Origin: a virus
IMG/VR virus record: IMGVR_UViG_3300030090_004249
Location: 1 to 45,555 of that record
DNA length: 45,555 nucleotides
Reading direction: 5' to 3' (one strand)
Part shown: one piece after another, positions 10,930 to 39,349 of the stretch
How the letters are laid out: each line of letters starts with the position of its first letter
How positions within the stretch are numbered: position 1 is the stretch's first letter
Notes under the pieces: model-generated
What the model was told of the DNA's origin: nothing
What the model saw: only the letters and a program-made list of their open reading frames with translations
Databases searched by the model: none
Made by a program: the position numbers and the translations under genes

Positions 10930-12045
10930 ATGAAAACTAAGCAAACAAATTGGTGGTACTTTATCCCACCACAAATCGGAGTAGTAAGTTTTGCATATGG
11001 TTCACCTGGACTAGGCAAGACGGAGGTAATGACAGCACTATCACAGGCAGCACAAAGAAAATTTATTCTTATGCTCCTGGATCAGCACGAACCAGAGGAC
11101 ATTGGAGGATTTCCTATACCGTCCAAGGTAACAGTGGATGGCGAAGAGCATGGTGTCATTAAGAAGTACCCAATGGAGAACATCATCCAGGCTAAGAAAG
11201 AAAAATCTTTAATGCTGGTTGACGAGTTCACTTGTGTATCGGAGGACATGCAAGCAGCAGCACTCACGTTCATGGCTAGCCCGCCAAAGAATTGCTGGGT
11301 GTACGCAGCAGGTAACAGACCTGATGAAGCTGCGAACGGTCACGAGATCAGCGAGCCTATGATTAACAGGATGTGCGTAGGTGATTGGGAGTTCGACAAG
11401 AAAGCATGGGCTCAAGGGATGACTGAGGGTGGAGGCTTTGAGTTTCCAGCACCTAAGTTCCCTATGATTCCAGATGGTTGGGAGGAATCAGTACCTTTCT
11501 ACGCTGACAAAATAAATAGTTTTGTTAACTGTAGAACTACACTGTCTCGGCCTGAGTATCTTAACCGACCCAATAAAGATGAGACTATGGGTAGTCCATT
11601 CCCTTCACCTAGATCGTGGACTAATGCTGCTCGTATCTTGGGTGCCGCAATGCTAGTCGGTGCCAACAAGAAGACACAGCGTAAGTTAATAGGTGGATGT
11701 GTCGGTGATGAGGTAGGTCAGGAGTTCTTAGACTTCCTAGATGTAGATAGCTACGGTGATCCCGAGGAAATACTTAACAGTCCTCGTGAGATTGAGCTAC
11801 CTAAAGCAAGCAACCTAGCTATAAGCTACGTTAAATCTGTACTCACTAGAGTTAAGGAAGAGTTAACTCCAGAGAGATGGGAGAATGGCAGAGAGTTCCT
11901 TGCAACAGTGCATCGTACACACCCTGAGATTGCAAAGACCTTCGAGGCTAAGCTGTTAGAGCTGAAACCTGATGGTCATGATGTAGTTAAGAACGAGTAC
12001 GTTGCCAGCATGGAAGATGATTGGCTAAGTAACATCCACAATTAA
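10930..12045 (+). CDS. MoxR-family AAA+ ATPase, 371 aa
   Basis: Clear AAA+ signatures: Walker A GSPGLGKT (residues 24-31), Walker B LMLVDEF (D98, E99), sensor 1 YAAGNRP (N129) and the downstream INRM (R147, candidate arginine finger). The spacing and the GNRPDEA context fit MoxR/RavA-type chaperone ATPases rather than replication clamps or helicases. Known: these ATPases act with VWA-domain proteins to insert cofactors or remodel complexes. The next gene (12056) indeed encodes a VWA protein, 10 nt downstream with its own AAGGAG. Inference: a phage-encoded remodelling machine whose target is unknown, possibly host polymerase or the phage replisome. ATG 10930 follows AAGGA at slightly long spacing. 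Confidence 0.85.
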   Translation: MKTKQTNWWYFIPPQIGVVSFAYGSPGLGKTEVMTALSQAAQRKFILMLLDQHEPEDIGGFPIPSKVTVDGEEHGVIKKYPMENIIQAKKEKSLMLVDEFTCVSEDMQAAALTFMASPPKNCWVYAAGNRPDEAANGHEISEPMINRMCVGDWEFDKKAWAQGMTEGGGFEFPAPKFPMIPDGWEESVPFYADKINSFVNCRTTLSRPEYLNRPNKDETMGSPFPSPRSWTNAARILGAAMLVGANKKTQRKLIGGCVGDEVGQEFLDFLDVDSYGDPEEILNSPREIELPKASNLAISYVKSVLTRVKEELTPERWENGREFLATVHRTHPEIAKTFEAKLLELKPDGHDVVKNEYVASMEDDWLSNIHN

Positions 12046-12055
12046 GGAGTTTATC

Positions 12056-13705
12056 ATGGCTAAATCATTGCCGACAACGGAAGTATATTCTAGAATAAAC
12101 CACAAAGAGCCGGAGGTTTTGCGACAAGCAAAGCTGACGGCTGCTAGGTACTGGAAGTTCTCCCGTGACTTACTGTTCTCTATGCGTACTGTGCCAGTCA
12201 AAGGGCTAGGCACTATGGCAGTAGATAGATTCTTGAATCTGTACTACGACCCTGAGTACCTAAAGAATAGGCATCAAGCGGAGATCAGTTCGTGCTTGTT
12301 GCATGAGATGTGTCATATATTTATGGGACATCACCGTAGGTTCCACGCCTTAGTGAATAATCCTACAAAGATTAGTAGAGAGAAATGGAATGAGGCCTGT
12401 GACATAACAGTAAATTATTTACTAGACCAGGAGTTCTCGGTACACGGGACGAGTGGTAGATGGTGTGAGTTCAGGGTGGGTTATGATTGGTTGATGCACG
12501 ACCGATACCCATACAGTCAAACACCTGAGATCACAGGCAATCAATCCGCAGAAAAAGTTTTTAGAATTTTGATGAAAGGAATTAGCGATGGCCAAGACCA
12601 AAGCAACTCCAACGACGAACGGTCGGATAGGCCGAGCGACACTGGAGAAGATACAGGAAGTTCAGTTAGATTTCAACGAGAAACTGACGACGATCCAAGT
12701 GACACTGGGGAATCTAGTGCAGAACAAGGATCAGCAGGAGGAACTGAAGGAGAAGTTGAACCAGATGGAAGGACAGCTACAGATACTAGCGGGTCAGATC
12801 ATCGGGATCAATCAGGGGACAGCGAACGCACTGCAAGTGATGGACGCTCAGCTGAATCAGATGGCGAGCCAGCAGATGGCTTCATATCAACAGATGAATC
12901 AGGCTCCCTCGTCTGGAATGGCGAACCAATATCAGCGCCAGGCACCGGAGGAAATGGATCCTCGTTATCAGATGGAACGCCAAGAGCTTGGGAGATAGCT
13001 GGCTCAAGTGATGACGCTGGTGGAAACTCAATGAGTGAAGCCGATGTTGATTCACTTATAACATCAGCATGTCACAAAGCTCAGGGCGATTTAGGTAGTA
13101 ACATATCATTCGCCTTGAAGGATGTGATGCGTTCCATATCTAAGATCTCCGAAGACCCATGGTCTATGATACTCAGGCTGACCCGTGGAAAACTAAATAA
13201 TTTTAGATCCAGGGGAGGCAAGCGAACTTATCGCAGGTTGAATAGGCGTGGGCTAGGGCATGGAGTATGCAGGCCAGTCAAACGCAGTGGGAAACCACAG
13301 CTTGCAATATGCCTAGACACATCAGCTTCCATGATGAGTGATGATTACGACAAGGCTTACTCAGTAATAAAAAAATTATTAGATAACCTGGGATCCAGCG
13401 AGGATGTCTGTGTTATCACGGGTGACACCGGAGCTAAGACTAAAGTAGTTATGTCTAAGAATGTAAGTGACAATCAACTGAGGCAACTTCAGATGAATGG
13501 TGGTGGAGGTACTGATGTTGGTGTGTTAATTGAAGACACGCTAGCTCAGGCTAACCCGAAGCCAGATGTAATAGTTGCAATCACGGATGGCATGACTCCA
13601 TGGCCAGACGAATTAAAGGTACCTGTGTTGGCTGTACTGACACAGGATGTAGATGAATACTGGGTTCCGCCCAGCCACATAACTAAAATTATTTTGAAAG
13701 GTTAA
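12056..13705 (+). CDS. Metallopeptidase-like plus VWA-domain protein, 549 aa
   Basis: ATG 12056 follows AAGGAG. The N-terminal domain (about 1-175) holds SSCLLHEMCHIFMGHH, an HExxH zinc motif (H83, E84, H87). The C-terminal domain (about 325-545) is a VWA-like fold with MIDAS residues D421-x-S423-x-S425 (DTSAS), T486 (GGGGTD) and D511 (ITDGM). Together these match the putative metallopeptidase/VWA-like family that pairs with MoxR ATPases. Between them, residues 178-314 form an acidic Ser/Asp/Gly/Thr-rich disordered linker. This is exactly the segment overlapped by a second ORF in the +1 frame (12588-12998). Inference: a metal-dependent partner of the MoxR ATPase. Peptidase activity is not assured because the third metal ligand is not obvious. 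Confidence 0.85.
   Translation: MAKSLPTTEVYSRINHKEPEVLRQAKLTAARYWKFSRDLLFSMRTVPVKGLGTMAVDRFLNLYYDPEYLKNRHQAEISSCLLHEMCHIFMGHHRRFHALVNNPTKISREKWNEACDITVNYLLDQEFSVHGTSGRWCEFRVGYDWLMHDRYPYSQTPEITGNQSAEKVFRILMKGISDGQDQSNSNDERSDRPSDTGEDTGSSVRFQRETDDDPSDTGESSAEQGSAGGTEGEVEPDGRTATDTSGSDHRDQSGDSERTASDGRSAESDGEPADGFISTDESGSLVWNGEPISAPGTGGNGSSLSDGTPRAWEIAGSSDDAGGNSMSEADVDSLITSACHKAQGDLGSNISFALKDVMRSISKISEDPWSMILRLTRGKLNNFRSRGGKRTYRRLNRRGLGHGVCRPVKRSGKPQLAICLDTSASMMSDDYDKAYSVIKKLLDNLGSSEDVCVITGDTGAKTKVVMSKNVSDNQLRQLQMNGGGGTDVGVLIEDTLAQANPKPDVIVAITDGMTPWPDELKVPVLAVLTQDVDEYWVPPSHITKIILKG
12588..12998 (+). CDS. Overprinted Gln-rich coiled-coil protein, 136 aa (nested in VWA gene, +1 frame)
   Basis: This ORF lies wholly inside the VWA gene but in the +1 frame. 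ATG 12588 has its own ribosome-binding site (AAAGGA, 7-nt spacer). The product does not look like a random shadow. A basic head (MAKTKATPTTNGRIGRATLE) precedes a long amphipathic helix, residues about 18-100, with heptad-like spacing of Leu/Ile/Val/Met (KLTTIQVTLGNLVQ, LKEKLNQMEGQLQILAGQII). A Gln/Met-rich tail follows. The VWA frame is low-complexity over the same bases, so that frame is free to tolerate the second one. An open run of 136 codons by chance in one frame is roughly a 1-in-600 event at equal base use. Inference: a real nested gene encoding an oligomeric small protein. The alternative is that the linker's codon bias alone produced it. Confidence 0.6.
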   Translation: MAKTKATPTTNGRIGRATLEKIQEVQLDFNEKLTTIQVTLGNLVQNKDQQEELKEKLNQMEGQLQILAGQIIGINQGTANALQVMDAQLNQMASQQMASYQQMNQAPSSGMANQYQRQAPEEMDPRYQMERQELGR

Positions 13706-13709
13706 TGAG

Positions 13710-14096
13710 ATGGCAAGTTTTAATAGAGTAATCCTAGCAGGGAATTTAGTTCGAGACGTAGAGCTAAGACAACTAGGAGAGGATAAGGTAGTAGGTGATG
13801 TACCCCTTGCAGTTAACGAAGGATACAAGGACAAGCAGACAGTACACTATGTAGATCTTACACTGTGGAATCAGACTGCTAACTTTGCATCTAACTATCT
13901 AAGCAAGGGTTCCAATGTCTTGGTAGAAGGTAGGCTTCATCAGGATAGATGGGAGACTGAGGACGGAAAGCGTAGTAAGCACAAGGTTACTGTAGATAAA
14001 TTAATTTCTTTAGATAAGAAATCAGACACAGCCGACCGACCTGCAAGCACAGAGCCTATGGCTCAACCAGTTCAGTCGAACGACGTCCCCTTCTAA
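13710..14096 (+). CDS. ssb: Single-stranded DNA-binding protein, 128 aa
   Basis: This is a typical OB-fold SSB. The N-terminus SFNRVILAGNLVRDVELRQ matches the canonical start of bacterial SSBs. The core has VPLAVNEG, VDLTLWNQTANFASNYLSKG and VLVEGRLHQDRWETEDGK. The short tail ends QSNDVPF, an acidic tip like the D-D-I-P-F peptide that recruits partner enzymes. It protects ssDNA in replication and recombination and would work with the ERF and RecE-like proteins encoded downstream. ATG 13710 follows AAAGG and lies 4 nt after the VWA stop. The palindrome at 14095-14115 overlaps its stop codon. Confidence 0.95.
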   Translation: MASFNRVILAGNLVRDVELRQLGEDKVVGDVPLAVNEGYKDKQTVHYVDLTLWNQTANFASNYLSKGSNVLVEGRLHQDRWETEDGKRSKHKVTVDKLISLDKKSDTADRPASTEPMAQPVQSNDVPF

Positions 14097-17920: not shown

Positions 17921-18770
17921 TGAAGAGTTCAAAGACCTACTTCGTCCACTAAACAGCGAGGAATATGACAGCCTTGAAGAGTCAATTAGAACACTGGGAA
18001 TGGCTTACGATCCTATTATCCTTTGGGATAATACTATTATCGACGGTCATCATCGTTACGGGATCTGTACGCATGGTGGCTATGACTATACTACTCTTGA
18101 TCTTGAGTTTGATAGCAGAGAAGAAGCTAAGCAATGGATAATAGATAAGCAAGCAGGCCGAAGAAACCTCATGCCTATGGAAATTAAATATCTTCGTGGG
18201 CAAAGGATCGCTAAGGAGATGAAACCTCATGGCGGATTCGGGGAGACAGAAGGGAAAGAACTTGCTGAGCTAGCAAGTGATGAAGGGGTTAGCGTAAGAA
18301 CATTGCAACGTGATGTGTCACTAGCTAAAGACATCGACCAGCTTGAGCCCGAAGTAAAGACATCTGTACTAAAGGGTGATGTTAAAGCAACGGCAAAACA
18401 AATCAAAGAGCTTGTCAAGATGGACAAGCGAGACCAAAAGAAAGCAGCTAAATCTATACAAGAAGGAAAGGGAATTGAATATGAAGACATCGACGCTTGG
18501 ATTACCGAACTGGCTGAGCCATATAAAAATTCGACGAGACAACTAAGAGCCATCAGGAAAAAGATGGAAGAGATCTCTTACAATCCAACGGAAGGTAAGT
18601 ATGTTGCCAGTAAGTTTACTCGAATAAAGAATAACCTAGATGAAGTCATCGACAGCATCAGCCAGTGTGAACCTGTTGCTGCCTGTGTTGACTGTGGAGG
18701 AGAAGGATGCAACAGTTGTTATGGGACGGGGTTCCTCAGCCGCGCCGCCAAGGAAAGCCAGGACAATTAA
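17892..18770 (+). CDS. ParB/Srx-like protein with C-terminal DnaJ-type zinc motif, 292 aa
   Basis: ATG 17892 follows AGGAG. The N-terminal ParB-like domain has EEYDSLEESIRTLGMAYDPI and the signature IIDGHHRYGIC (residues 49-59). A KorB/HTH-like middle region follows (LAELASDEGVSVRTLQRDVS, about 120-145) with long charged helices after it. Near the C-terminus C265-VD-C268-GGEG-C273-NS-C276-YGTG is half of a DnaJ cysteine-rich repeat. The fusion is unusual. Known: ParB-like domains can bind DNA or hydrolyse CTP or act as nucleases; the DGHHR loop favours the ParB/sulfiredoxin fold. Inference: a DNA-binding regulator or adaptor that delivers the next gene's helicase, whose start it overlaps by 64 nt. 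Confidence 0.75.
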   Translation: MAEQTNISIDEEFKDLLRPLNSEEYDSLEESIRTLGMAYDPIILWDNTIIDGHHRYGICTHGGYDYTTLDLEFDSREEAKQWIIDKQAGRRNLMPMEIKYLRGQRIAKEMKPHGGFGETEGKELAELASDEGVSVRTLQRDVSLAKDIDQLEPEVKTSVLKGDVKATAKQIKELVKMDKRDQKKAAKSIQEGKGIEYEDIDAWITELAEPYKNSTRQLRAIRKKMEEISYNPTEGKYVASKFTRIKNNLDEVIDSISQCEPVAACVDCGGEGCNSCYGTGFLSRAAKESQDN

Positions 18771-20320
18771 ATTATTTCTGCGAACGCCCTTACCAATCTG
18801 AAGCTAGGGTTGCAATAGAAAAAGGTTTTGAGGATCATGATTCTATACTGGTTGAGCTAGCTACAGGTCTAGGTAAGACAGAAATATTTACCCAAGTCGC
18901 CAAGGACTGGAGTAAGGGGCGGTGCTTAGTCATCGCTCCTTACATCCAGCTAATATCCCAGGCTGCAAAGAAAATATTTTTAAGAACTGGCGAGCAGCCT
19001 GGCGTAGAGCAGGCAAAGAACTGGTCAATCGAAACGCCATGGGGACGTAGTAAATATGTCGTCGCATCAAAAGACACTCTATCTTCTGGCGACCCGCCTA
19101 GATATGAAAGGATTAGGGACGTTGGGCTTGTTGTGGTGGACGAGGCCCATCTTTCCATTACACCTAAATGGAAAGAGCTACTTGATTACTATCGAAGGGA
19201 CGGAGCCAAAGTTCTTGGAGTTACAGCTACGGCTAAGCGACACGACAAGAAAGCCATGCTCAACTGCTACGAAGAGTGCGTCTATCAGTACGGTATTAGA
19301 GATGCGGTGGGTGAAGGGTGGCTCACGCCTGCAATTACCCACTGCGTACAGCTTGAGTCCCTCGACCTCTCTGGCGTGGAGACTTCTAACACAATACATG
19401 GCAGAGACTTTAGGCAAACACAACTGAATGCACTGCTTGAAAAGTCTGAGACAGTAATGGAGATCGCCGACATTACTGCAAAAGAAACCGAAGGCGAGAA
19501 GACTGTAATCTATTGCAGCAGCATAGAAGAAGCTAAGCTAGTTGCTGAAAGGCTAGTAGATAACTATGGAATCAGAGCAGACTGGATCGCATCAGACGCA
19601 AGACGATGCACACCTGAACACAGGCGGGAAGTTATGCGTTCTTTTCAGGAAGATGCTGGAGGTATCACGCATGTTTGCAACGTGGGTATTCTTACTACTG
19701 GCTGGGATTATCCTGACCTACGAAACATTGTCATGGCTAGACCGACAAGAAGCCGTGCTCTTTACACACAGATATTTGGTAGGGGTACTAGGCCTCTGCC
19801 TGGTGTGGTTGATTTTGACGGCAGTGATGCTGCATCCAGACGTGAGGCGATAAAGGATTCTGCTAAGCCACACTTCAGAATGATTGACTTAGTTGACTCA
19901 TCACTTGCCCACAAGATAGTAACCTCAGCTGATGTAATGCTTGGCGACATGGGGCTGGATGTTCTGGGGAAAGCAAAAGAAAATATTTTAGAAGCTGGCC
20001 AGGCTGTCGAGTTAGACGAAGCAATGCTTGAAGCACAGCGACAAGTGCGAGAAGAAAGGGAAGAGGAGGAACGTGAGAGGCGTAGGCAAATCGAAGCGAA
20101 CGCCCAGTACCATACTCTCGACATTGATCCTTTCGGAAAGAATGCTCAGGGCAATGTCCGCAAGAAGAAGCGCGGAGCCCGTATGCTGTTCGGCAAGTTC
20201 CGTGGGACGTTAGTCGAAGATGTTCCGACTTGGTACCTTGAGTCGTGCATGGCTGGTAAACCTTTCATCTCTGTGGCTTGGCTCCGCTCTGCTATTAAAA
20301 AGGAATTAGGTAAACGATGA
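18707..20320 (+). CDS. SF2 DEAH-type helicase with DUF3820-like C-terminus, 537 aa
   Basis: Motifs in order: RPYQ (27-30), Walker A ATGLGKT (K57), DEAH (145-148) in VVVDEAH, TAT (173-175), YCSS, and motif VI QIFGRGTRPLPG near residue 365. It belongs to the type III restriction/RecQ-like SF2 group. After a charged helix (EEREEEERERRRQIE, about 445) the last 50 residues (FGKFRGTLVEDVPTWYLES) resemble the small DUF3820 module also found fused to exonucleases. It would translocate or unwind DNA or displaced strands during replication and recombination. ATG 18707 follows GGAGGAGAAGG inside the previous gene (64-nt overlap), so the two proteins are translationally coupled. Confidence 0.85.
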   Translation: MQQLLWDGVPQPRRQGKPGQLNYFCERPYQSEARVAIEKGFEDHDSILVELATGLGKTEIFTQVAKDWSKGRCLVIAPYIQLISQAAKKIFLRTGEQPGVEQAKNWSIETPWGRSKYVVASKDTLSSGDPPRYERIRDVGLVVVDEAHLSITPKWKELLDYYRRDGAKVLGVTATAKRHDKKAMLNCYEECVYQYGIRDAVGEGWLTPAITHCVQLESLDLSGVETSNTIHGRDFRQTQLNALLEKSETVMEIADITAKETEGEKTVIYCSSIEEAKLVAERLVDNYGIRADWIASDARRCTPEHRREVMRSFQEDAGGITHVCNVGILTTGWDYPDLRNIVMARPTRSRALYTQIFGRGTRPLPGVVDFDGSDAASRREAIKDSAKPHFRMIDLVDSSLAHKIVTSADVMLGDMGLDVLGKAKENILEAGQAVELDEAMLEAQRQVREEREEEERERRRQIEANAQYHTLDIDPFGKNAQGNVRKKKRGARMLFGKFRGTLVEDVPTWYLESCMAGKPFISVAWLRSAIKKELGKR

Positions 20321-21516
20321 TTATTGAAAGCACCAAAGAGTTTTATAATGGCGTGTCTGTTGATCTGCATACACACCCACATCTTAAAAGCTACATGTTC
20401 TCCCGGAGCATGAACAAAAAGAAATTTCTTTCCCGCCTGTTTAAGTACACCTTCTGGCCTTTTAGTCACCGTGTATCTCTGGATGATCTTAAGGATCACA
20501 TAGATGTATCATTGGCTACCACTTATGTACTCGAACGCGAATGGCTTGATGATGTGCCCTTAATAAAATTTCTTTCCAAGCTATCTCCAAAGTTCAGGAA
20601 AAAGATTCTCGATCCTACTTACTTCCAAGTCACGTTAGATATGATGCAACACCTAGAAGATAGCGTGAATCAATGCGATGGTGTATGTATAGCTAGAGAT
20701 AAACATCACCTAGTTAGTAAGGTTAATCATGGCGAAAGCTGTATAGTTCATTCGGTTGAAGGGGCACACTCACTGATAGGTGATGGCGGACCAGGGGATC
20801 AAAAAGAAATTATTTCTAACCTTCGTCAGCTGTGGGCAAAGGGCTGTGCTTATCTAACCCTTGCCCACTTCTATCCCAATCCAGCGGTGGAGTCGTGTGT
20901 GTTTCCTTACCCTGAGCCAGAGAAAAAGAATATAAAAAACTTTCACTCCCTGGCGGGCAACTGGGAGGAGTCCGGCGGGCTAACTCAAACAGGGGTGGAG
21001 ATTGTTGAGACGATGCTAGAGTTGGGCATGATTATAGATGTAACTCACATGACACTGAGAGGACGGAAAGAAGTGTACGATATAGTGGACGCTCACGACA
21101 AAGACCACGCTTTAATGGCAAGCCACGTCGGAGCTAGCGAAGTGCATAGACTTTCATATAACCTGCAAGACTGGGAGCTAAAGTGGATGGCCGACAGAGG
21201 CTGTTGTGCTGGCATTATCTTCATGAACTACTGGCTAACACCTCACCACCATGAAGGGAATGGTCTTAAGTACATAGAGCAGACGCTTAATCATATGGTC
21301 AATGTAGCAGGGGCAGACGTACCCGCTATAGGCTCAGACTTCGATGGCTTTACAGATCCACCTGATGAGATGACGACAACGGCTGACTTCCCATTAATTG
21401 CCAAGCACCTGCTGGACATGGGGTACGACGACATAACAATAAAGAATTTTATTGGAGGCAACGCAATGAATCTACTAACAAACGGCTGGGGTAAGGATGA
21501 AGAAGACAGCATCTGA
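20317..21516 (+). CDS. Peptidase family M19 membrane-dipeptidase-like enzyme, 399 aa
   Basis: ATG 20317 overlaps the helicase stop by 4 nt and has AAAGGA upstream. The whole chain follows the renal-dipeptidase fold. Zinc ligands are visible: VDLHTHP (H18, H20; HxH in place of HxD), HSVEGAH (E148), IDVTHMT (H244), MASHVGA (H270) and IGSDFDGF (D341). LTLAHFYPNP and GGLTQTGVEIVETMLELGM are also family hallmarks. Known: M19 enzymes cleave dipeptides, often with a C-terminal D-amino acid, and some act on beta-lactams. There is no signal peptide, so it should be cytoplasmic. Such a gene in a phage recombination operon is unusual. Possible roles are altering peptidoglycan precursors (D-Ala-D-Ala) before lysis or scavenging nutrients; inference. 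Confidence 0.88.
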   Translation: MIIESTKEFYNGVSVDLHTHPHLKSYMFSRSMNKKKFLSRLFKYTFWPFSHRVSLDDLKDHIDVSLATTYVLEREWLDDVPLIKFLSKLSPKFRKKILDPTYFQVTLDMMQHLEDSVNQCDGVCIARDKHHLVSKVNHGESCIVHSVEGAHSLIGDGGPGDQKEIISNLRQLWAKGCAYLTLAHFYPNPAVESCVFPYPEPEKKNIKNFHSLAGNWEESGGLTQTGVEIVETMLELGMIIDVTHMTLRGRKEVYDIVDAHDKDHALMASHVGASEVHRLSYNLQDWELKWMADRGCCAGIIFMNYWLTPHHHEGNGLKYIEQTLNHMVNVAGADVPAIGSDFDGFTDPPDEMTTTADFPLIAKHLLDMGYDDITIKNFIGGNAMNLLTNGWGKDEEDSI

Positions 21517-22801: not shown

Positions 22802-24439
22802 ATGCCTACTGTCAATGAAGTTATAGTATCAAATAGCGATGATGGGGTTGCTCAGTATGAGGAATACTATAGCAGTGGTGGTAGCTGTAGCGGTGTAGAC
22901 AGCAGCCATCAAAGAATTAGATTCTATGGGCGGTCGGACTATGGCGATAAAGACATGCACTGGAAGGACTGGAGGCCTTACCTAAGATTCCAGACTATAG
23001 ACATCCCGCAAGGAGCAACAATAACCGAAGCCAAGATACAGCTAGCCTACCACTCAGACAATGGAAACGCAGTTGGAAATACTGTAACCATACGAGGAGA
23101 AGACACTGATGATGCCTCCTCAGCAGCTAGTAGCTGCAGTGCATTTGGAAATGCAACAAGAACTACAGCCAGTGTAGACTGGGCTTTCTCAAGCGGCATG
23201 AGTGCGGGAACTTTCTATGATACGCCAGACATAAAAACTATTGTCCAAGAGATAGTTAATAGAGCTGGGTGGTCTGCTGATAACGACATGCAGTTCTTCT
23301 TTGAAGATCTTACATTTAACAACAGCAACAACTGGCTTCTTCAATTCCGTAGTAAGAACTATAGTGGTACTACATACACACCTAAGTTATCAATAACCTA
23401 TTCCCTGGGAGAAGAGTTTACTCCCAGTGCTGCACCCGCCGTAGCCAACGCAGCGGGCCCTGGTTTTAATATTTCTATACAGGGAATACAAGCAACAGCC
23501 GTAGCTAATGCAGCAGTTGGCGGGATCAAAGAAACCCACACGCCTGCTGTAGCATCGGCTGAAACACAGGCAGTCCTGGGGGGAATAAAATTTTCTTTTG
23601 TTCCTGGTGCTGCAAACGCTGTGGCCAATGCAGTTGTTGGGGGTATTAAGGAAACACATACACCTGCCGCAGCTAGTGCAACTACCGCAGCAGCCTTGTC
23701 TTTGAAGATTAGCTTTTCACCAACGGCAGCAAGTGCAGTAGCCAATGCTTACTACCCACCTCCGGCGGTGGAGTTCACACCGCCAGACCAAGCAACAGCA
23801 GTAACTGCAGCCACAAGAAAAGGTATGGCTTACTCAGGCTTTGCTGCCAGTGCAGTAGCCAACGCAGAAATAAATATTCTTTGGCCGACAGCTGCCAACG
23901 CAGTAGCTAACGCACAGCTAAATGGAATTAAGATTAGCTTTGCACCAGCAGCAGCATCAGCGATAGCGAAAGCATTAACTACATACATACTGCATACACC
24001 AGCAGCAGCAGGGGCCGACACAGATTTAGCTGGATCATTCATTGAAAAGGGATTCACCCTCACGCCCGCCGCAGGAAGCTCCATAACAACGGCAACACTA
24101 CTCGACCCAAGACTGTCTTCGTTCTCTATAACGCCCGCAGCAAGCTCGTCAGAGGCCACAGCGGTACACTCAGCAGTAATGATAACGCTAGCACCCATCT
24201 CAAGGATGCTAAGCATAGTTAATAACTACGAAGGGATCATAGTTTACCAGCTTTCATCAGGGGACATAGCCTATGTAGCAGGCATGGGGCTAACAACGCC
24301 TGCCCTGCCGGAAGCAAACTCAATAACCAACATGACCCACGTATCGAACACCTATGACGGCACGTTGATATACCAAGACGCAGCAGGGACAATCAAAAGA
24401 GTTGATGGGTACGGGCTAACAGAATCTGGTGGACTTTAA
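22802..24439 (+). CDS. Repeat-rich fibre/adhesin-like structural protein, 545 aa
   Basis: ATG 22802 follows GGAG at 7 nt (a TTG two codons earlier is unlikely). The N-terminal domain (about 1-205) looks like a jelly-roll/DNRLRE-type beta-sandwich (LRFQTIDIPQGATITEAKIQ, then GTTYTPKLSITYS). Residues about 208-450 contain a dozen or more degenerate repeats of about 16-25 residues built on TPAAASAVANA plus a GIKxSF-type strand (for example PGAANAVANAVVGGIKETH). This suggests a beta-solenoid or extended shaft. The C-terminus has two related units (NNYEGIIVYQ, then NTYDGTLIYQDAAG) ending GYGLTESGGL. Its stop overlaps the stop of the convergent minus-strand gene by 4 nt. Inference: a host-contact fibre or surface protein; the Ala-rich repeats could drive copy-number variation. 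Confidence 0.7.
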   Translation: MPTVNEVIVSNSDDGVAQYEEYYSSGGSCSGVDSSHQRIRFYGRSDYGDKDMHWKDWRPYLRFQTIDIPQGATITEAKIQLAYHSDNGNAVGNTVTIRGEDTDDASSAASSCSAFGNATRTTASVDWAFSSGMSAGTFYDTPDIKTIVQEIVNRAGWSADNDMQFFFEDLTFNNSNNWLLQFRSKNYSGTTYTPKLSITYSLGEEFTPSAAPAVANAAGPGFNISIQGIQATAVANAAVGGIKETHTPAVASAETQAVLGGIKFSFVPGAANAVANAVVGGIKETHTPAAASATTAAALSLKISFSPTAASAVANAYYPPPAVEFTPPDQATAVTAATRKGMAYSGFAASAVANAEINILWPTAANAVANAQLNGIKISFAPAAASAIAKALTTYILHTPAAAGADTDLAGSFIEKGFTLTPAAGSSITTATLLDPRLSSFSITPAASSSEATAVHSAVMITLAPISRMLSIVNNYEGIIVYQLSSGDIAYVAGMGLTTPALPEANSITNMTHVSNTYDGTLIYQDAAGTIKRVDGYGLTESGGL

Positions 24440-27400
24440 TACTTAAAGTATCTAGTCTCATCGCTCATCGTTTTCAGCAACTGATCCCTTTGGTGTCGAG
24501 GGCTTCCGTAGTATCCTGGCACATTGAGAAGCTGATCCCCACTGTAGTAATACCCTGGATTTGGTTTGAATACAGGCATGGTTCTACCTGTTATAGGATC
24601 TACTTCTTGCCTTGCCTCAAGCTCTGGTTTTAGCAGCTCTCTCCACACTGTGTTTCTTTGTTGTGCGGAATCAACATCCTGCATTGTAAATCCAAGTGCC
24701 CTAGGTAAATAATAATCTTTTAACTCTCCGTCTTTTCCAATGAACACATCCCTATAAGAACGGCCAGTACCAGGTATAATGCCTTGCTGCCCCCTACTAA
24801 CAGACCACAAAGGCCTTCCGGATTTAACTTCTTTTCCAGTAATAGTTTCATACCCTGCCTTGAACATGGGTGAAGCCCTGTTGAGAAGCATGTCAACATA
24901 ATCAGATGCTGTGCCTCCTCTAGGCAACAGCTCGTTTAAGTCAGACATAGGCACTTCAATTTTCATGTAGCCTGGATGACCAATCTTTGCATCTGTTTGG
25001 CCCAGTTGAGCCATTACATTCTGAATGCCTCGTCCCATTGGTACATAGTTGCCACTTCTTATCCACTCAGGAGTAGCGTATTGATACTCCTGATCTTGGT
25101 TCTGGAGCGTATGAGTTGCCTTTGCAAGTAAAGCCCTTGCACCTCCAGGTTTAGTTACAAAATCTTCTAGGATGGTGGGAAGCATACCCCGAGTAAATGA
25201 ATAGAAAGGTATGATCCTTCTCATGACCTTTTTCTCGAACTCAGTTAAAAGACTATAGTCTATCTGGGCACGACCTACAGCAGCAGCTGCCTCGGTAGGA
25301 GACATGCCTTTCTTTCTTGCCGTAAGGTACCCAGACACTCGGTTCATGAACTCAACTTCTGATCCTGCCTTGTGACCAAGAGAGTAAATTGCAGACGTAT
25401 CAACTTCTGGCTTTGTAAGCAAGGTATTAGGATCTAGCTTGCCTGATCTAAGTATTCCTCTCCGGCCACCGAAAGCCCCTCTCCCTGTGAGTGCACCAAG
25501 AGGGGAACCTACCCCTGTTACTTGTCCTAGTATATCCAAGCCTGTTACAACTCCAGCCGCTGGGCTTGACGTTGCAACCTTAGCGGCATCAGACAATGCT
25601 GCACCTGCTTGTTCGCCCAGTCCCCTGCGACCAGCTGGAGAGGTTGAACCATCTAGCATTCTTGACTCTCTCAAAAACAACTCAGGTGTTTCAGAGTCAA
25701 CTGCCAGATCTATCGGGCTAATATCGGCAGACCACACTTTGTATGCAGGCACTTCATACATTAATATCTGAGTTGCCACAGCGTCAGCTGCAGATTGACC
25801 TGCTGGTATATTTAGAAAACTAACATCAGCTCCGGCTGGAACTACCACCCTACCATTGACAATAAACTGAGCAAGCTCTGGAGGATAGTTGTGTGAGGTT
25901 GCATCAAAATAAATTTCTGATGCACCTTGAACTACATTCTTCCTGCTCATATTGCTGGCAGACTTCATCCCCCACGGGCTGAAAATACCTCCAACAAAAT
26001 TAGTCCACCCACCACTGATGCCATTTCTCAAATGAAACGCTGTGAATAAGCTGGTCATGCCAACTTTCCAGCTATCATTAAGGGAGTCGTAGATTCTAGC
26101 TATTGCACTGGTGTTTTCTGCGGCATACCTTGGGTTAGTGTAGACAGCGAAAGCTCTACCCATGTCGTCTGCGATTGTTGTAGGTATTGCTATGGCGTTT
26201 TCTATATTACCTGAGCCTTGCAAAACATCTATAATCTGTTCCTTTGTGGCTCCAGCAGGAATAGGCAGCTGCATTCCAGACGATTGAAGCTGCTTCACTA
26301 CATGCCTTAAAGCATTGTCGGTAATTACATTGTCAGCAGAAAGCCTTAAGCCCTCATCTCCAGATCTTTGAAGCAAATCAATAACATTAGTTACAGATGG
26401 GCCAGACAAACCCAAGTCAGCCCACTGTCGTTTTGTTTTTGCTAAGTCACCAATAGTTTCATATATAACCTCAGTGGACTTAATTGCTTTAGTCACTGAA
26501 TTAATATAATCTCTAGTGTCTTTAACGGGATCTACCCTATACATTGGTATGTTTTCATCTGCATACCTAGTGCTAAGGCTACCTACTGTGTCGAGAAGGT
26601 TGCCAATCTGTTCTCTTTGGTAGGCAACATCCAAAGGATTAGATAAATCTAGCGCAACTAAATTGCCAGCAGGATCACGCCTGTGTGTTTTGACAATTGT
26701 TTGTGAGTAGTCTGGATCTTTTAGTATCTCATCAATTAAATTATTTTTTAGCGTTGGATCCAGGAAAGATTTACCGCTAGCAGCCTGCATGATATTGCCG
26801 GTGTTAGCTTGGCTTCTTGTTGCAATGCCAGAGAATCTTTTATCAAGACTCAGCCTCATCAATGCTTCAGTACCACCGGGTATATTGGCCAGCTCTTCCT
26901 TACGGCCTAAGCTAGCAGACGTAGCCACTCCTCTATCAGGGCTAAGGGAAGCATTGCCCGCCAGATCACCCAAAGCATTGTCTGACATATACCTGTTATC
27001 AAACTGTCGATGAAAGTGTTCTATCTTTAAGTCGTCTAATATAGGAGCAGGCAAGCCAGATGAATCAGCTAAAGCATATGCTTGTTTTTGCAGGTCTTTT
27101 AGTGCGTCTAAGTCTTGGTATATCCCAGCATCTACAAAAGTCTTATGAACATTAGGACTGGACTGAGCAAGGGATGTTGTAGCAGCAATAGGATCCTTGG
27201 CCTCAAGGTATCCTCTCATAGCCATCCCGACATTGTGCTTATTGCTTCCAGTGAGAAGTCCAGACTCTACAAACTTCTGGTTAATTACAGACAATGCCAT
27301 ATCATTTTGTGCCACCAAATCATCAGCAGCCTTAAGCATTGTTTGAAATGTTCTTTGTCCGTACTTTGTCTTAGGCCCTCTAATGTTCCAGATTTTACCC

Positions 27401-28311
27401 GGAATCCTAGGAGCAAGTTTAGAATCAAAGTATTGCCTTAACGGGCGGCTGAGCCTGCCAGTTAGATCCGCCGTCCCAGCGCCAGTCTTTGCTATCGCCT
27501 GGGAAAGTCTTCCCGAACCAATGGGTCCTACCACTGGGGCATTAAAGAGACTGCTAATTCTTTGGTCTAAAATCCCAGACAAGTCTCCTTTGCCTTTTAC
27601 TTCAGGTAATCTGTAAAGGCTGTCAAGAAATGTATTGTCGAACTTTTCTAGTTGCTGCCTGAGAATTGAAGGGTCTGCAGTATTTCTAGCTAGCTGCTGC
27701 TTATAAGCACTAATGGCTTCGTCTACCGTAAACTGCATTCCGGTAGCCCTAGGCTGATAGCCGCCCAGGTTATCTACTAAACCAGAAGCACCAGTCCCAA
27801 TGCCCAGGCTTTTAGGATTAACCCCAGCCTTGCCTTGCCTTGCAGCCGCTGAAAGAACATCGTCTAAATAGCCAGAGTTCTTGAGTGCTTTACCCCCTGA
27901 AGATAAAACTTTTGTCCCTCCGAGGGTAACCCATGATGTTGGGTCAGCCGCAACCCCAACACCCAAGGCGGCGATGTCATCCCAATAGGAGTCTGGGTCG
28001 TCCCATCCGCCAAGAAGTTCTTTCTCTCCTACCCTGCTTCCAAAATCAGTAATTCCAAGAGCATCGGAAGCTGGAACCCAAGCAGCAAGTTCCCATGGGT
28101 CCGCACCCTCATCATAAACACCGGCTTCTTTCCCCAGTATTTTTAATCCAGCCGCTACTGGCCTGTATGCTTTATCAAAAGTATTTTCTACGGCCCAGCT
28201 TAGGCCACCAAGCACGGGATCGGTAATTCTTTGCAGCCAAGATCTTTGATCTCGAGGGCTTTGGTGCGCAATGTGCCCAGTTGGTGGCTGATGTGGTCCA
28301 AAAATACTCAC
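24436..28311 (-). CDS. Giant internal-virion-type protein, 1291 aa
   Basis: No enzyme domain is certain. ATG 28311 lies 8 nt after the upstream stop. The chain is largely helical with many small hydrophobic stretches. Two patches recall large ejected or internal virion proteins of tailed phages: FTAFHLRNGISGGWTNFVGG (near residue 750) and EFEKKVMRRIIPFYSFTRGM (near 1020). The Pro-rich tail holds GRTMPVFKPNPGYYYSG. It ends tail-to-tail with the fibre gene, sharing TTAA. Known: short-tailed phages eject such proteins to form a channel through the host envelope. Inference: an internal or ejection protein. It is the last gene of the right-hand virion operon, so it is probably made late. Confidence 0.75.
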   Translation of the reverse strand: MSIFGPHQPPTGHIAHQSPRDQRSWLQRITDPVLGGLSWAVENTFDKAYRPVAAGLKILGKEAGVYDEGADPWELAAWVPASDALGITDFGSRVGEKELLGGWDDPDSYWDDIAALGVGVAADPTSWVTLGGTKVLSSGGKALKNSGYLDDVLSAAARQGKAGVNPKSLGIGTGASGLVDNLGGYQPRATGMQFTVDEAISAYKQQLARNTADPSILRQQLEKFDNTFLDSLYRLPEVKGKGDLSGILDQRISSLFNAPVVGPIGSGRLSQAIAKTGAGTADLTGRLSRPLRQYFDSKLAPRIPGKIWNIRGPKTKYGQRTFQTMLKAADDLVAQNDMALSVINQKFVESGLLTGSNKHNVGMAMRGYLEAKDPIAATTSLAQSSPNVHKTFVDAGIYQDLDALKDLQKQAYALADSSGLPAPILDDLKIEHFHRQFDNRYMSDNALGDLAGNASLSPDRGVATSASLGRKEELANIPGGTEALMRLSLDKRFSGIATRSQANTGNIMQAASGKSFLDPTLKNNLIDEILKDPDYSQTIVKTHRRDPAGNLVALDLSNPLDVAYQREQIGNLLDTVGSLSTRYADENIPMYRVDPVKDTRDYINSVTKAIKSTEVIYETIGDLAKTKRQWADLGLSGPSVTNVIDLLQRSGDEGLRLSADNVITDNALRHVVKQLQSSGMQLPIPAGATKEQIIDVLQGSGNIENAIAIPTTIADDMGRAFAVYTNPRYAAENTSAIARIYDSLNDSWKVGMTSLFTAFHLRNGISGGWTNFVGGIFSPWGMKSASNMSRKNVVQGASEIYFDATSHNYPPELAQFIVNGRVVVPAGADVSFLNIPAGQSAADAVATQILMYEVPAYKVWSADISPIDLAVDSETPELFLRESRMLDGSTSPAGRRGLGEQAGAALSDAAKVATSSPAAGVVTGLDILGQVTGVGSPLGALTGRGAFGGRRGILRSGKLDPNTLLTKPEVDTSAIYSLGHKAGSEVEFMNRVSGYLTARKKGMSPTEAAAAVGRAQIDYSLLTEFEKKVMRRIIPFYSFTRGMLPTILEDFVTKPGGARALLAKATHTLQNQDQEYQYATPEWIRSGNYVPMGRGIQNVMAQLGQTDAKIGHPGYMKIEVPMSDLNELLPRGGTASDYVDMLLNRASPMFKAGYETITGKEVKSGRPLWSVSRGQQGIIPGTGRSYRDVFIGKDGELKDYYLPRALGFTMQDVDSAQQRNTVWRELLKPELEARQEVDPITGRTMPVFKPNPGYYYSGDQLLNVPGYYGSPRHQRDQLLKTMSDETRYFKY

Positions 28312-28319
28312 GCTGCCAC

Positions 28320-29096
28320 CTACTGATTAATGTCTTGGATGTTTAGTTGATCCAGAAAGACAGGGGGTCCGCTTTGCGTGGGTGGAGTGTTTAATATCTG
28401 CCTAATAAAACTAGACGGATCATTTTGAGGGACGGAATTTATATATATATTAGGAACCACCACGCCTGGAATTCCTTGGCCTTTCATTTTTTCTAAAATT
28501 GAAGGGGCTAGAACTGGTGGCCTTCTGCTTTGAAACTCCCTGAATTGCTGCATCTCAGCTGGAAGAAATCGCTTATAGTATTTGACTTCGGGCGATTCCA
28601 TTGCCGTGTAATCAATCATATCCGTTATGTACTGCTGCATTTTAACAATATCTTCTTGGCTAAGACCTCTATCGTCTTCCGTCACATATGCGCTAAAAGG
28701 AGACTGGCCACCAACACTAACCCAGGCAGGATTAGCATTATAAAATCTTTCTGCTACATTGTCCCTAAAGCCACCAAGCCCAGCCAAAGCCTGTTGCATG
28801 GTCAGGTCTGGACGCTCAGTTCTTGTGGGGTTGAGCATTTGATTTATGTTTATGGCTTGGGTCATATCTGACATGTTAATGCCAGCAGCATCAGATAGCA
28901 AAGAGAGGAGCATAGCCTCTCCTATTTCAGGCCTTCCCAGCATACCTCGTATGACTTGCTCAGGGGAACTGCTAGTGGGGGCGACTGTCTTAGTAACCTT
29001 AGAAACAGCTTCGGGAGACTGCTCAACTACAGTGGTTGTTTCAAGCGGAGCACTTTGAGTGCCCATTAAAAAATCCATGTTGCTTAAATCGGACAT
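28320..29096 (-). CDS. Hypothetical virion-operon protein, 258 aa
   Basis: Not recognised. ATG 29096 overlaps the stop of the 1557-aa gene as TAATG, so translation is coupled. The N-terminal 50 residues are Ser/Thr/Val-rich and disordered. The middle is helical (LMQ-type and YYKRFLPAEMQQFREFQSRR, about 165-190). The C-terminus is Pro/Asn/Ile-rich (PGVVVPNIYINSVPQNDP). Between two giant virion proteins, it may be their partner in the internal core or ejection complex. Confidence 0.65.
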   Translation of the reverse strand: MSDLSNMDFLMGTQSAPLETTTVVEQSPEAVSKVTKTVAPTSSSPEQVIRGMLGRPEIGEAMLLSLLSDAAGINMSDMTQAININQMLNPTRTERPDLTMQQALAGLGGFRDNVAERFYNANPAWVSVGGQSPFSAYVTEDDRGLSQEDIVKMQQYITDMIDYTAMESPEVKYYKRFLPAEMQQFREFQSRRPPVLAPSILEKMKGQGIPGVVVPNIYINSVPQNDPSSFIRQILNTPPTQSGPPVFLDQLNIQDINQ

Positions 29097-32000
29097 TATT
29101 CATCTTCCCCAATTAGCTTGTATATGTCTGTGTACTTAGACTCTTTATGTTCCCAGTAAGGTGTAAGCGACTTAATCATTCTTTCGTGTTCGGTTAAAAC
29201 GTTGCTTACAGGGCTTTCCCAGAAGCTGTCATTGCCCATGCTTCTATTATAGCCAACGATCTCTCCTGGATTATCGCCTGTTTGATTGTAAATTCTTATG
29301 ACGTTTCCTTTTTGATAAGGATCTGCAACTTCATCTAATTGGCCGGTGTCAGCAACACCTTCAAAAGGATTGCTAGGTTTCATAGACGTAAGACCCCTAT
29401 CCACAAATTGTTGCAGCTTCGCATACCAAGGAACATTCGGCATACTCAACGCATCCCAGGCTGTAGCACCCTTGAAAGGTTCAGGCTTAATGTAATTACC
29501 GTGATCTCTCTCGGTAAACATCGGCTTGTCCTTAAAGTTCTTATCGACAATAGCCTTGTGGTCGGTAACAGCATGTTTGTTATCATCAACGCTTCTTACG
29601 TCACGAAGGGCCTGAACGTAATCGCCCCAGTTCTTCCACTTCTCACCAAAGTTTTCAATTCCAGTATCCTCTTCTCTTACAGCAGTCCCTGTGTGTTTGT
29701 TCGTTAGGGTTCTTGAGTCTGGATTCCATTTCCAATAGCGTCGATTGCTGTAAGGGGTAGCATCATAAATTTCTTTTATCTTTTCTGGTGTATTCTTTCC
29801 GATGAACTTCTTGGAATCGACATCGCTGCGAAGCCTCAATGTTTGATAGTTAGGGGACCTAACAAAGCCACTGCCCAAGGTGTCATAATCTCCCACGTTA
29901 CCAAACACACCCTCAATACCATAATGCACACCCATTAATGGGTTCATAAGGCTCTTGACGGTACCACTAGCCATCTCTCCTGCGCCTTCTACGGACGCTG
30001 CTTGGCCAGTGTAGTCAGACCAGCCGGGCATATGGAACATTCCGTAAGGGGTAAGATCTGATTCTGGCTCATCTATGTAAGAGTCGGTACCAGCTTGTGT
30101 CTCAAGTCTGTACTGAGGCATCCAGCCCATATCCTCTTTGCTAGATTTTTCGAGTACATTGATAGACCTTCCAAATGCACCTTCGGGCCCACCCTCTCTC
30201 ATCTTGGTGTACTCATTAAGGTTTCTTCGCATTGTCTTGTAGTTAGGGTGTGATTCTACGCTGCTATACTGACCTGATTGGACACCAGCGACAAGCTCGT
30301 CTCTAAGATCGAACAGTCTCTGTCCTTGCTCAGGGGTAATGTATTGAACTTTTACACCATCTGGGCCATCAGTATTGTTGCCTGCAAGGTGAAGTATCAA
30401 CTGGTTGTAATCTGCAACATCTCGACCTAATACAAGATCTTTTGGCGTTCCATACTTTGCATATTCCTTAGCGGTAATTGCGCCCTTACTTAACTCAAAC
30501 AAATCGCCGCCTAAACTTATCAGCCCTCCAGCGGTAGGCTTGAAAGAGGCTGCTTTCTCAATGCCAGCCTTGCCCCAGGCTATCGGTCGACCAGCTTTAG
30601 TTTTGCTAAAGTCGTCTATCGCTGTCTGCAGCTTGTTGAGGCTTGACCCTACATTGGTTCTTCTTGTTAGAAGCTCTGACATTCTAGATGGAGGGCCTTT
30701 TAACTCAGGGTTAGAATCCCACATGGAGTCCCAAGCGCCTTTAATTTTACCTCCGGTTTTCTTAACACCTTCTATTGGAGCTGTTACTACAGCCTTTGCT
30801 CCAGATGCCATTCTGTCGCGTAGGCTTTTGTTTACTTCTTCAGGGGCTGCAGCCTCTGGTGATGCTGCCTCTAAATCAAACGCATCATTAGTTGAAGAGA
30901 AAGCATCTCGAAGCTCTTGGTTTCTAGCTTCTTTTGCAGCTATTTCCTCTGGAGTCATTGGAACATTAGCACCAAAATCTTCCGGCGTGTAACGGAACAT
31001 CGGGTTAATCCTTGGCCCGGCCTGCTCACCTAATACTGCCCCTGCGTCTAGAGGGAATCCAGTATCCATCGGAAGTATTGATTGTGGTCTAGCTGGAGAT
31101 AGGTTGCGAATCATGCCTTCTGGTGTGCTCTGCATTTGAACTACTCGTCTTTTAGATTGACCTTCTAGCGCCTGAACAACACCAGCTTCCTCCATCTTTC
31201 TCATAAGGGCACTGGCCTGCCCAAACCCAATACCCAATGCTCTCTGTAAATCGGCTGTGCCAATATCAGTTTTACCTTTTGTGAGTTCAACTGCTTCGTC
31301 ATACCTAGGAACATTTCTCCAGGCATAGTCATGAGGAATCCTATCTGAAACATGACCAGCAAAATTACCTTGCGCACCAGTGAGATTGCTTATCTTCATG
31401 TCTAATGACGACCCAGGGGCATTTCTTATGGCTTGTGCTAGTCCCTTATAGTCTAGTTCTCCATCGGCGTTATAAAATTTCTTTAGTTCTGGATGCCTTT
31501 CTGCCATGCCTTCCAAGACTTCGCCTTCCGCATGTGCTATATCAGCCCAAATCGGCTCCCGATCGTATTCGTCTTCGGACAGGGCATCGTCTTCTAGTGT
31601 CACGACAAACCAATCCTTCCCTTCACTGCGATTACCTGGAGTCATGTCTGCAAGGTAATCCATCGCCATGGCAAGGGCGTCATCATCAATTTTATATTTG
31701 TCTTGGCCAGCAAGCAGTCTCAGTACAGACCTTAATTCCGCTTCCTGTGGCGACACATCATGCCTAGCGTTCCACTTCTCAACAAATTCATTAAAGCTGT
31801 CCGCTTGAGCCTGTTCTGTTTTTGCCCTTAATCCTTCGGTTTCAGGGATTATATCCCACGAACCACCTTCTTCCGTTTGTAAGTCTAGCCTTGGCTGCAA
31901 GTGCATCCAGTTGAGCTTACCCGTAAGAGGCTTTTGCATTCTGTAATCAACATAGTCCCGTGCATTCAGGAAGTCGTCGTGGCCATAACCAGCAGCATAC

Positions 32001-34427: not shown

Positions 34428-34448
34428 AAGATGACATTTTGTCATGTT
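34428..34448. promoter_or_regulatory. 21-bp palindrome, copy 4 of 4
   Basis: Arms AAGATGACA and TGTCATGTT flank TTT; the inner ATGACA/TGTCAT is perfect. It sits in the 32-nt gap between the 701-aa and 213-aa genes and overlaps the stop codon of the former. It is the best-conserved copy and the only gap of this size in the right virion operon. Confidence 0.6.
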
Positions 34449-36552: not shown

Positions 36553-36553
36553 T

Positions 36554-37216
36554 TTATCGCCCAAGTAATGCTTGTTGTAATGGATGTGTAACACCTGCTT
36601 CTTGAGCAACCTGATTCGCTAAGAAGTCTTCTAGGTTTATGTTTAAGTCTCCGGCAGAAAACCCAGAGGCCGCACTGCCTGCATCATAAAATCCCATTGG
36701 AATTTTTTTTCTTTTAGCTTTTTCAAATTCTGGGAAGTCGGGTGCTTCGTTTGGGAAATCCTCAAACTCAAGGTTTTGGTCTGGTATGCCTGGAATATCC
36801 CATTCAGGGATATCAAATTCAGGCCAATCAAAATCGCCAGGGTCAACAGGGTCGCCATGTATTGGAGGCTCGTAATCATTCCAGCCTTCAGGGTCACCTC
36901 CTAATGGGTCTGACATTGGAGTACCTTGTTCGCCGTACATGTCTATGTCATCGCCTTCTAGGTCAATCATTCCATCATCATCGTAATTGTCAGGCTTATA
37001 GGCAGCAGACATATATGACATAGGAACAGAACTAGATGTAGCGGGAGCCGATGCCATATTTGACGAAGTGCCGCCACCAAGAAGAGCGTCCATCAAATTG
37101 CTACCGCCGGCAAGCAGGCTGTTGTTGCCGCCAGTAAGGAGGTAATCTGATGGCATACCTGACCCACTATTAGGATCTCCATACCCAGTCAAATTGTGCA
37201 TATATGTATCGTTCAC
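36554..37216 (-). CDS. Acidic Asp/Pro/Trp-rich virion-type protein, 220 aa, GTG start
   Basis: Not recognised. GTG 37216 is preceded by AGGA at 7 nt; ATG 37201 is an alternative. Residues 15-75 are Ser/Gly/Met-rich (GGTSSNMASAPATSSSVPMS) and contain NLMDALLGG. Residues 75-160 are very acidic with regular Trp/Phe/Pro (DFDWPEFDIPEWDIPGIPDQ), which may mimic DNA or bind a basic partner. The C-terminus ends THPLQQALLGR, matching the endings of two left-operon genes. Confidence 0.65.
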   Translation of the reverse strand: MNDTYMHNLTGYGDPNSGSGMPSDYLLTGGNNSLLAGGSNLMDALLGGGTSSNMASAPATSSSVPMSYMSAAYKPDNYDDDGMIDLEGDDIDMYGEQGTPMSDPLGGDPEGWNDYEPPIHGDPVDPGDFDWPEFDIPEWDIPGIPDQNLEFEDFPNEAPDFPEFEKAKRKKIPMGFYDAGSAASGFSAGDLNINLEDFLANQVAQEAGVTHPLQQALLGR

Positions 37217-38475: not shown

Positions 38476-38476
38476 C

Positions 38477-39349
38477 TTAATCACCTAATCCGTTTCTTGA
38501 ATTGTCTACTCGTTCTAAAAAAGAAACATATGTATAAGGAGGAATCGTTGCTGCGGTTGGACTACCGCTACCACTTGCTCCAGTAAAAGTTACGCTAATT
38601 GTACCTAAGTCAACACCCGAATCTCCAGTTGGAGTTCCGGTAACAACACTAACCGTGCTTTCACTTCCAGTGCCAATAGTGGTTTGGCTTAGCGTATGGC
38701 TATGATTTCCAATGCCGTTGGCTGTAAAAGTACCCTCTAGTGTTAATGCGCCTGTAGCACTGCCCCCGGTCCCACCGCTATCAGACGGACTAGACCAGCA
38801 GCGTGGAAACTTTGTGGCTAAGTTAATCCCAGTTCCGTTTCCAGAGGAGGATCCTTTAGCGTTTTCAGTCCCATTACAAAGGGCATAGCCTTTTATGCCC
38901 TTATCTGCTTGGCTTCCCATAATTATACTGCCTATGCGATTATCTCCATAGCCAGGAGCTATGTACTGGCCATTGGCAGTCTTAAAAAACATTATTGTTT
39001 CGCCTGACTCTATGTTGGGATCCTGAGATCCTGAGACAGGCAGGTATATTTTAAGCAAATCACCTGAAGCACCTACTCCAGTGGGGTCATTGCACTCTTG
39101 GGCTCTAACAAATGCCATGTGCCCACCTTTGCTTGGCGGATCTCTGTCGTACTCCCAGTTGTATTGACACTTAGCCCACCTAGCGGAACGCATATCAGTG
39201 CTTGTTATTTCTGTAGTAACAGAGATAAGCCCGTCATGCTCAAGGCTTGCTTGGGGATTGCAGAATATAGACTTAAGCGTTTTTACGGCAGAGGGGGTTA
39301 GTCCATCCGCAACCAAAGAGTCGAATAGCCCAGCTTGTTTACTAAACAT
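38477..39349 (-). CDS. Tail-collar/fibre-tip-like protein, 290 aa
   Basis: ATG 39349 overlaps the nozzle-like gene stop as TAATG. Residues about 145-185 (GIKGYALCNGTENAKGSSSG, then INLATKFPRCWS) follow the tail-collar domain pattern of phage fibre tips (G-x-x-L-C-N/D-G, then L-x-x-K/R-F). The C-terminal part is Gly/Ser/Thr-rich beta repeats with NHSHTLSQT, a His motif also common in fibre tips, ending in SGSPTAATIPPYTYVSFLER. Inference: receptor-contact or fibre-attachment protein. The order adaptor, nozzle, this gene supports a short-tail module. Confidence 0.75.
   Translation of the reverse strand: MFSKQAGLFDSLVADGLTPSAVKTLKSIFCNPQASLEHDGLISVTTEITSTDMRSARWAKCQYNWEYDRDPPSKGGHMAFVRAQECNDPTGVGASGDLLKIYLPVSGSQDPNIESGETIMFFKTANGQYIAPGYGDNRIGSIIMGSQADKGIKGYALCNGTENAKGSSSGNGTGINLATKFPRCWSSPSDSGGTGGSATGALTLEGTFTANGIGNHSHTLSQTTIGTGSESTVSVVTGTPTGDSGVDLGTISVTFTGASGSGSPTAATIPPYTYVSFLERVDNSRNGLGD

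Follow-up and report, generated by a model that had tools for sequence, protein, structure and literature searches.

A conserved reading frame under purifying selection nested in the linker of a phage metallopeptidase-VWA gene

A 136-codon open reading frame (ORF) lies wholly inside a phage gene for a metallopeptidase-like VWA protein, in the +1 frame relative to that host gene. The nested frame is conserved among related phages and is under purifying selection as a protein. From the pattern of sequence change between relatives, it is almost certainly a real, protein-coding overlapping gene. The window, meaning the whole stretch of DNA analyzed, comprises 45,555 nucleotides of IMG/VR record IMGVR_UViG_3300030090_004249, and all positions below refer to it unless another contig is named.

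The nested frame in a single sequence

The sequence at 12588-12998 confirms the 136-codon +1 ORF described by the initial annotation, together with the AAAGGA placed 7 nt before its ATG (Table 1). This Shine-Dalgarno-like element pairs with the anti-Shine-Dalgarno sequence at -5.6 kcal/mol, and a TGA TGA doublet at 12570-12575 closes the nested frame just 5' of the ORF. Peptides encoded by the nested frame include IQEVQLDFNEK and LTTIQVTLGNLVQNK.

Viewed in one sequence, the ORF is mildly unusual; across relatives, it is far beyond chance. Synonymous redrawing of the host codons of the window left all 136 codons of the +1 frame open in 11% of trials, with a starting ATG as well in 6%. Depending on the gene, the +1 frame survives such recoding in 3-77% of trials. 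The Ser/Asp/Gly/Thr linker contains few codons that yield +1 stops, which explains why an open +1 frame by chance is not rarer, and long open +1 frames also occur in the linkers of unrelated GC-rich relatives. Both the recoding result and these other linkers fit a reading in which the open frame is a by-product of linker amino-acid composition and no product is made. Open-frame length, weak at 11% open by recoding, was dropped as evidence for the gene, and so was Shine-Dalgarno strength, which is ordinary given that 125 of the 759 ATGs on this strand of the window have an equally strong element. An ATG followed by an open frame makes a poor argument for a gene, and counts by codon position make a good one.

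Table 1. Features of the nested gene, its host gene and the adjoining genes (window positions)
Feature	Position	Strand	Details and basis
MoxR-type AAA+ ATPase gene	10930..12045	+	Directly upstream of VWA gene; PHROG, Pfam
Host gene, DUF2201-type metallopeptidase-like + VWA protein	12056..13705	+	549 aa; Pfam, PHROG
HExxH (HEMCH) motif, metallopeptidase-like domain	12302..12316	+	Host residues 83-87; sequence, alignment
Shine-Dalgarno-like AAAGGA of nested gene	12575..12580	+	7 nt 5' of ATG 12588; sequence
Predicted disordered linker	12584..12892	+	Host residues 177-279, under nested helix; AlphaFold2 pLDDT <50
Nested overlapping gene (almost certain)	12588..12998	+	136 codons, ATG start, TAG stop 12996-12998; +1 frame of VWA gene
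Predicted single long amphipathic helix (coiled coil)	12633..12899	+	Nested residues 16-104; AlphaFold2, heptad a/d
Host DESGSLVWNGEPI motif	12893..12931	+	Alignment; overlaps start of nested tail
Predicted disordered Gln/Met-rich tail	12900..12995	+	Nested residues 105-136, poorly conserved; low pLDDT
Host VWA domain with DxSxS (DTSAS) MIDAS motif	13301..13654	+	Pfam
Single-strand DNA binding protein (SSB) gene	13710..14096	+	Directly downstream of VWA gene; Pfam SSB 3.7e-24

Conservation of the nested frame among relatives

Relatives drawn from IMG/VR provide six distinct homologous VWA genes in two clades, all metagenomic, with no isolate among them. The first clade consists of the window (L001 is identical), L002 (96%), L003 (72%; its VWA gene is truncated by the contig end) and L012 (69%). 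The second consists of L035/L039 and L037/L040, whose host proteins are ~30% identical to those of the first clade; L036/L038 is a near-identical duplicate of L037/L040. The nested ORF is present in 6/6 distinct genes, in the same +1 frame and the same place, with a length of 118-136 codons. It ends 9-10 codons earlier in L003 and L012 than in the window, spans 118-128 codons in L035/L040, and is open in every relative, free of early stops. Its Shine-Dalgarno element and ATG are kept in all six genes, though the host codons there differ between clades and the host residues at the nested start read MKGISDG, NSGESNG or YKEPDHG. Across 12 contigs, a profile search recovered a single nested copy from each of the 7 group contigs and none from the other 5, in agreement with a scan of 43 loci. 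The same profile search found no second, free-standing copy in these contigs; in the contigs and loci searched, the nested gene is located solely inside the VWA gene, between MoxR and SSB.

The start region also bears on whether the nested frame is instead reached by a +1 frameshift, which would yield a fusion of the metallopeptidase domain with the coiled coil at its C-terminal end. AAAGGA could act as a frameshift-stimulating internal Shine-Dalgarno sequence, and the +1 frame is open ahead of the ATG for 4 codons in the window and ~19 in L040. Against such a product, an ATG at normal spacing from its Shine-Dalgarno element is retained in both clades over differing host residues, the TGA TGA doublet of the window leaves only four codons for shifting, and visual inspection revealed no conserved slippery sequence. 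A frameshifted fusion is very unlikely, and we favor internal initiation at the nested ATG.

Substitution pattern in the overlap

In the overlap, host codon position 1 coincides with nested position 3. Constraint on the host alone is expected to leave change at host position 3, whereas constraint on the nested frame is expected to leave it at host position 1. The counts shift toward position 1 in the overlap (Table 2), and the depletion of position-3 change there has p values of 5e-5 to 2e-11 in five pairs that are partly interdependent. Synonymous change in the host frame is suppressed in the overlap, and the VWA frame does not account for how the substitutions are distributed. Neither this comparison nor the check for early stops in relatives, the two refuting conditions set by the initial annotation, spoke against the nested gene. 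Between the window and L002, 121 host codons in the overlap are the same and none has changed synonymously, compared with 341 and 35 in the flanks (p=3.8e-5); between L035 and L040, the same/changed counts are 33/4 in the overlap versus 94/126 in the flanks (p=5.6e-8). A simple Nei-Gojobori count, made without regard to the overlap, gives a dN/dS of 0.13-0.44 for the nested frame; for the host frame within the overlap, dN/dS is 0.66-2.17 or dS equals 0.

Table 2. Substitutions at host codon positions 1,2,3 in the overlap and in its flanks
Pair	Overlap	Flanks	p
Window-L002	10,2,0	10,4,36	4.5e-6
Window-L003	45,28,31	45,28,113	
Window-L012	41,29,35	79,48,161	
L003-L012	45,26,23	59,40,119	
L035-L040	71,22,19	149,103,257	1.7e-11

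Protein identity follows the same division. The nested proteins of L035 and L040 are 69% identical, while the host linker is 32% identical and the host flanks are 46% and 63% identical. In simulations that kept the host proteins unchanged, nested identity was as high as observed in 0-1 of 2000 runs for four pairs and in 46/2000 runs for the window and L012. Simulations match the observed nested identity of the window with L035 and L040 in 267/2000 and 507/2000 runs, respectively, which is unexceptional, so both inter-clade pairs add the presence of the ORF and no evidence from identity. Constraint on the nested frame is strongest over helix residues 16-104. Between the window and L003, the overlap switches from a nested-type pattern over the helix (37,22,14) to a host-type pattern over the tail (8,6,17; p=0.001); this trend is weaker in other pairs and missing from window-L002.

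Internal controls lack this signature. The linkers of five VWA genes of other phages have position-3-dominated or flat substitutions and no general synonymous suppression, with 1/10 pairs exceptional. Two chance +1 ORFs with an ATG lie in the helicase gene of the window, at 19056-19427 and 19566-19853 (+), with 123 and 95 codons. Both follow the ordinary host pattern, for example 6,1,38 and 9,7,28 against L045. Stops interrupt the first of them in the second clade; the other is open in all relatives without nested-frame selection, so openness alone misleads. The position shift, the suppressed host synonymous change, a nested dN/dS below 0.5, the start signals kept over different host codons, and control linkers and chance ORFs without a position shift together argue against a mere by-product of linker composition, which we consider extremely unlikely.

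Another reading is that the region is conserved as nucleic acid, as an RNA structure or signal, and not as a nested protein; predicted folding is slightly stronger than in shuffles (z=-2.2). However, the changes recur with a period of three and concentrate at nested position 3 (71 of 112 between L035 and L040), and the nested frame retains the amino-acid identity given above; an RNA element would not track nested codon positions over ~120 codons. Of the readings weighed here, an RNA element has the most negligible probability, and selection on the nested protein is the preferred account.

Age of the two frames

Codon usage separates the two frames in all six genes: scores are -0.01 to 0.05 for the host frame in the overlap, which is phage-typical, and -0.06 to -0.12 for the nested frame, which is atypical. 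Distant VWA proteins (the L014-L030 hosts) have low-complexity linkers, and the genomes and loci searched yielded no nested homologue. Typical host codon usage and relatives that lack the nested gene indicate that the host frame is the older one and that the nested gene was overprinted on it. The host frame is also kept, since synonymous recoding of the nested frame would give it 5-10 stops on average.

Predicted structure of the nested protein and the host linker

In AlphaFold2 models built on alignments of just 4 and 12 sequences, nested residues 16-104 form one helix with pLDDT above 90 for most residues, followed by disorder, and the host protein falls below pLDDT 50 over residues 177-279, encoded by the same bases as the nested helix. 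The heptad a/d positions of the helix are 56-69% hydrophobic versus 15-21% elsewhere; a hendecad repeat was tried and fits more poorly. Hydrophobic residues make up 6-9% of the host frame across the overlap. Short strands resume in the host model at residues 277-287, where the nested tail begins, and the WNGEP part of the host DESGSLVWNGEPI motif is conserved in both clades in the alignment. The structural proposals of the initial annotation hold up against these data. The helix and its a/d hydrophobicity support a protein with a basic head, a long amphipathic helix and a Gln/Met tail; the predicted host disorder is consistent with a flexible linker under the helix; and the helix over predicted disorder, with the switch in pattern from helix to tail between the window and L003, agrees with a division of labor between the two frames.

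Searches of Pfam, PHROGs, PADLOC and PDB returned only weak coiled-coil-like matches for the nested protein family, none of them convincing, and there was no convincing match in named phages or in a viral structure library. By inspection of the sequence, the protein contains no cysteine, no hydrophobic N-terminus and no long hydrophobic segment. An Rz1-like nested spanin does not fit, since a lipobox cysteine and the hydrophobic segment of a signal peptide are both absent.

The host gene and a possible role of the nested protein

The host protein matches DUF2201_N (E=1.9e-15), DUF2201 (9.5e-12) and VWA_2 (9.9e-7) in Pfam and PHROG 1314 (1e-40). An AAA+ MoxR gene (PHROG 1297, 4.5e-37; Pfam AAA; Walker A GSPGLGKT) adjoins the VWA gene, so the window holds a MoxR and DUF2201 metallopeptidase-VWA pair, here with the HExxH zinc motif; the order MoxR-VWA-SSB-recombinase is also present in L035. 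HExxH is absent from the second-clade VWA proteins (L039:6001-7575 and L040:5929-7545), where RILVH and REILF stand in its place; the MIDAS motif of the VWA domain and the nested gene are both retained there. The nested protein is therefore probably independent of peptidase activity in that clade. The helicase (window 18707-20320) is ~70% identical between clades and the VWA host protein only ~30%, indicating that the VWA gene evolves unusually fast.

Group 2.2 jumbo phages carry a chaperone pair of a MoxR protein and a metallopeptidase-VWA protein with a proposed role in virion assembly (PMC7824862), and the gene pair here is of the same kind as theirs and as the MoxR-VWA pairs of Schitoviridae. 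Unlike the window, the distant MoxR-VWA relatives checked showed no nested homologue. MoxR-VWA pairs have been described as chaperones of assembly that transmit motion by way of helical linkers and flexible, charged ones (PMC7159879).

We infer that the nested protein is translated, oligomerizes and has a function. In the model that we propose, overprinting on a pre-existing disordered linker of the phage metallopeptidase-VWA protein would have created the gene, and internal initiation at its own Shine-Dalgarno element and ATG on the MoxR-VWA mRNA would yield a separate protein of ~118-136 residues. In this protein, a short basic head would lead into a single long amphipathic helix, probably forming a coiled-coil oligomer, and a disordered tail would follow. 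Division of labor would keep the two frames from conflicting much, with the nested helix sitting on a host stretch that may need only flexible, hydrophilic, stop-free sequence. The leading proposal for its function is a partnership with MoxR-VWA, in which the coiled coil may be an adaptor, a substrate or a third subunit in virion assembly or another phage complex.

Location and analogy with the published systems put a functional link to MoxR-VWA at about even odds. The fuller picture is more tentative: a three-part machine packed into two genes' worth of DNA, in which the MoxR ATPase and the VWA protein would be joined by a coiled-coil third subunit read from the VWA linker itself, so that this adaptor and its partner would share one mRNA and co-evolve. 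We lean slightly against it. A real nested gene could instead serve as a small phage scaffold, chaperone or host-takeover factor unrelated to MoxR-VWA. A gene that arises de novo by overprinting can have a role separate from that of the older gene, and conservation of the nested core extends to hosts that have lost HExxH; against this, in the contigs and loci searched the nested gene lies only inside the VWA gene, in a MoxR-VWA-SSB cluster. We consider an unrelated function to be a strong contender, only a little short of an even chance. The nested protein is a candidate for the third component of MoxR-VWA systems in phages.

Comparison with known overlapping genes

Genes overprinted on linkers are a known kind, and the nested protein belongs to a family without a match in the libraries searched. 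In apple stem grooving virus, a conserved movement protein overprints a fast-changing linker between the RdRp and the coat protein, with asymmetric evolution (PMC8227390). There too, a conserved protein lies over a fast-changing linker between two domains, but that virus is a plant RNA virus with an unrelated sequence, whereas here a same-strand +1 gene sits fully inside a phage gene. The polymerase spacer of hepatitis B virus likewise joins domains while another protein, that of the surface gene, is read from the same bases. In the reviewed model, that spacer is the younger frame (PMC8227390), unlike the linker here, which codon usage and relatives point to as the older one.

Fully nested phage genes include Rz1 in Rz of lambda and E in D of phiX174. 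Both encode lysis proteins, with a lipoprotein signal or a membrane segment. The present gene resembles them as a same-strand nested phage gene with its own start, and differs from them in encoding a protein with no cysteine or long hydrophobic segment.

Gene overlaps in DNA viruses have a median of ~16 nt (PMC8903798), compared with 411 nt here, making a conserved nested gene of this length unusual. In another survey, of 13,189 overlaps, annotation placed 30% entirely inside another gene (PMC7017920). Annotation usually overlooks genes of double-stranded DNA phages that are both long and fully nested. In the present case, the substitution signature is strong, the negative controls are internal, and a helix over disorder offers a plausible structural reason; the case also adds a protein family without known relatives.

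Other genes of the window

No VWA homologue was found in named phages (tblastn) or in bacterial genomes, and a literature search for N4-like VWA proteins returned nothing. Large, probably structural genes without a PHROG or Pfam match lie at 24436-28311, 34447-36609, 37225-38484 and 43053-44471 (-). These unmatched genes and the VWA gene without a tblastn match in named phages suggest that this phage group is poorly described. A membrane dipeptidase family M19 gene (Pfam 3.6e-40) is located at 20317-21516 (+). The gene at 29096-33769 (-) encodes a 1557-aa protein with an FtsK gamma domain (Pfam 8.6e-11, residues 822-877), an odd domain for what looks like a large phage protein.
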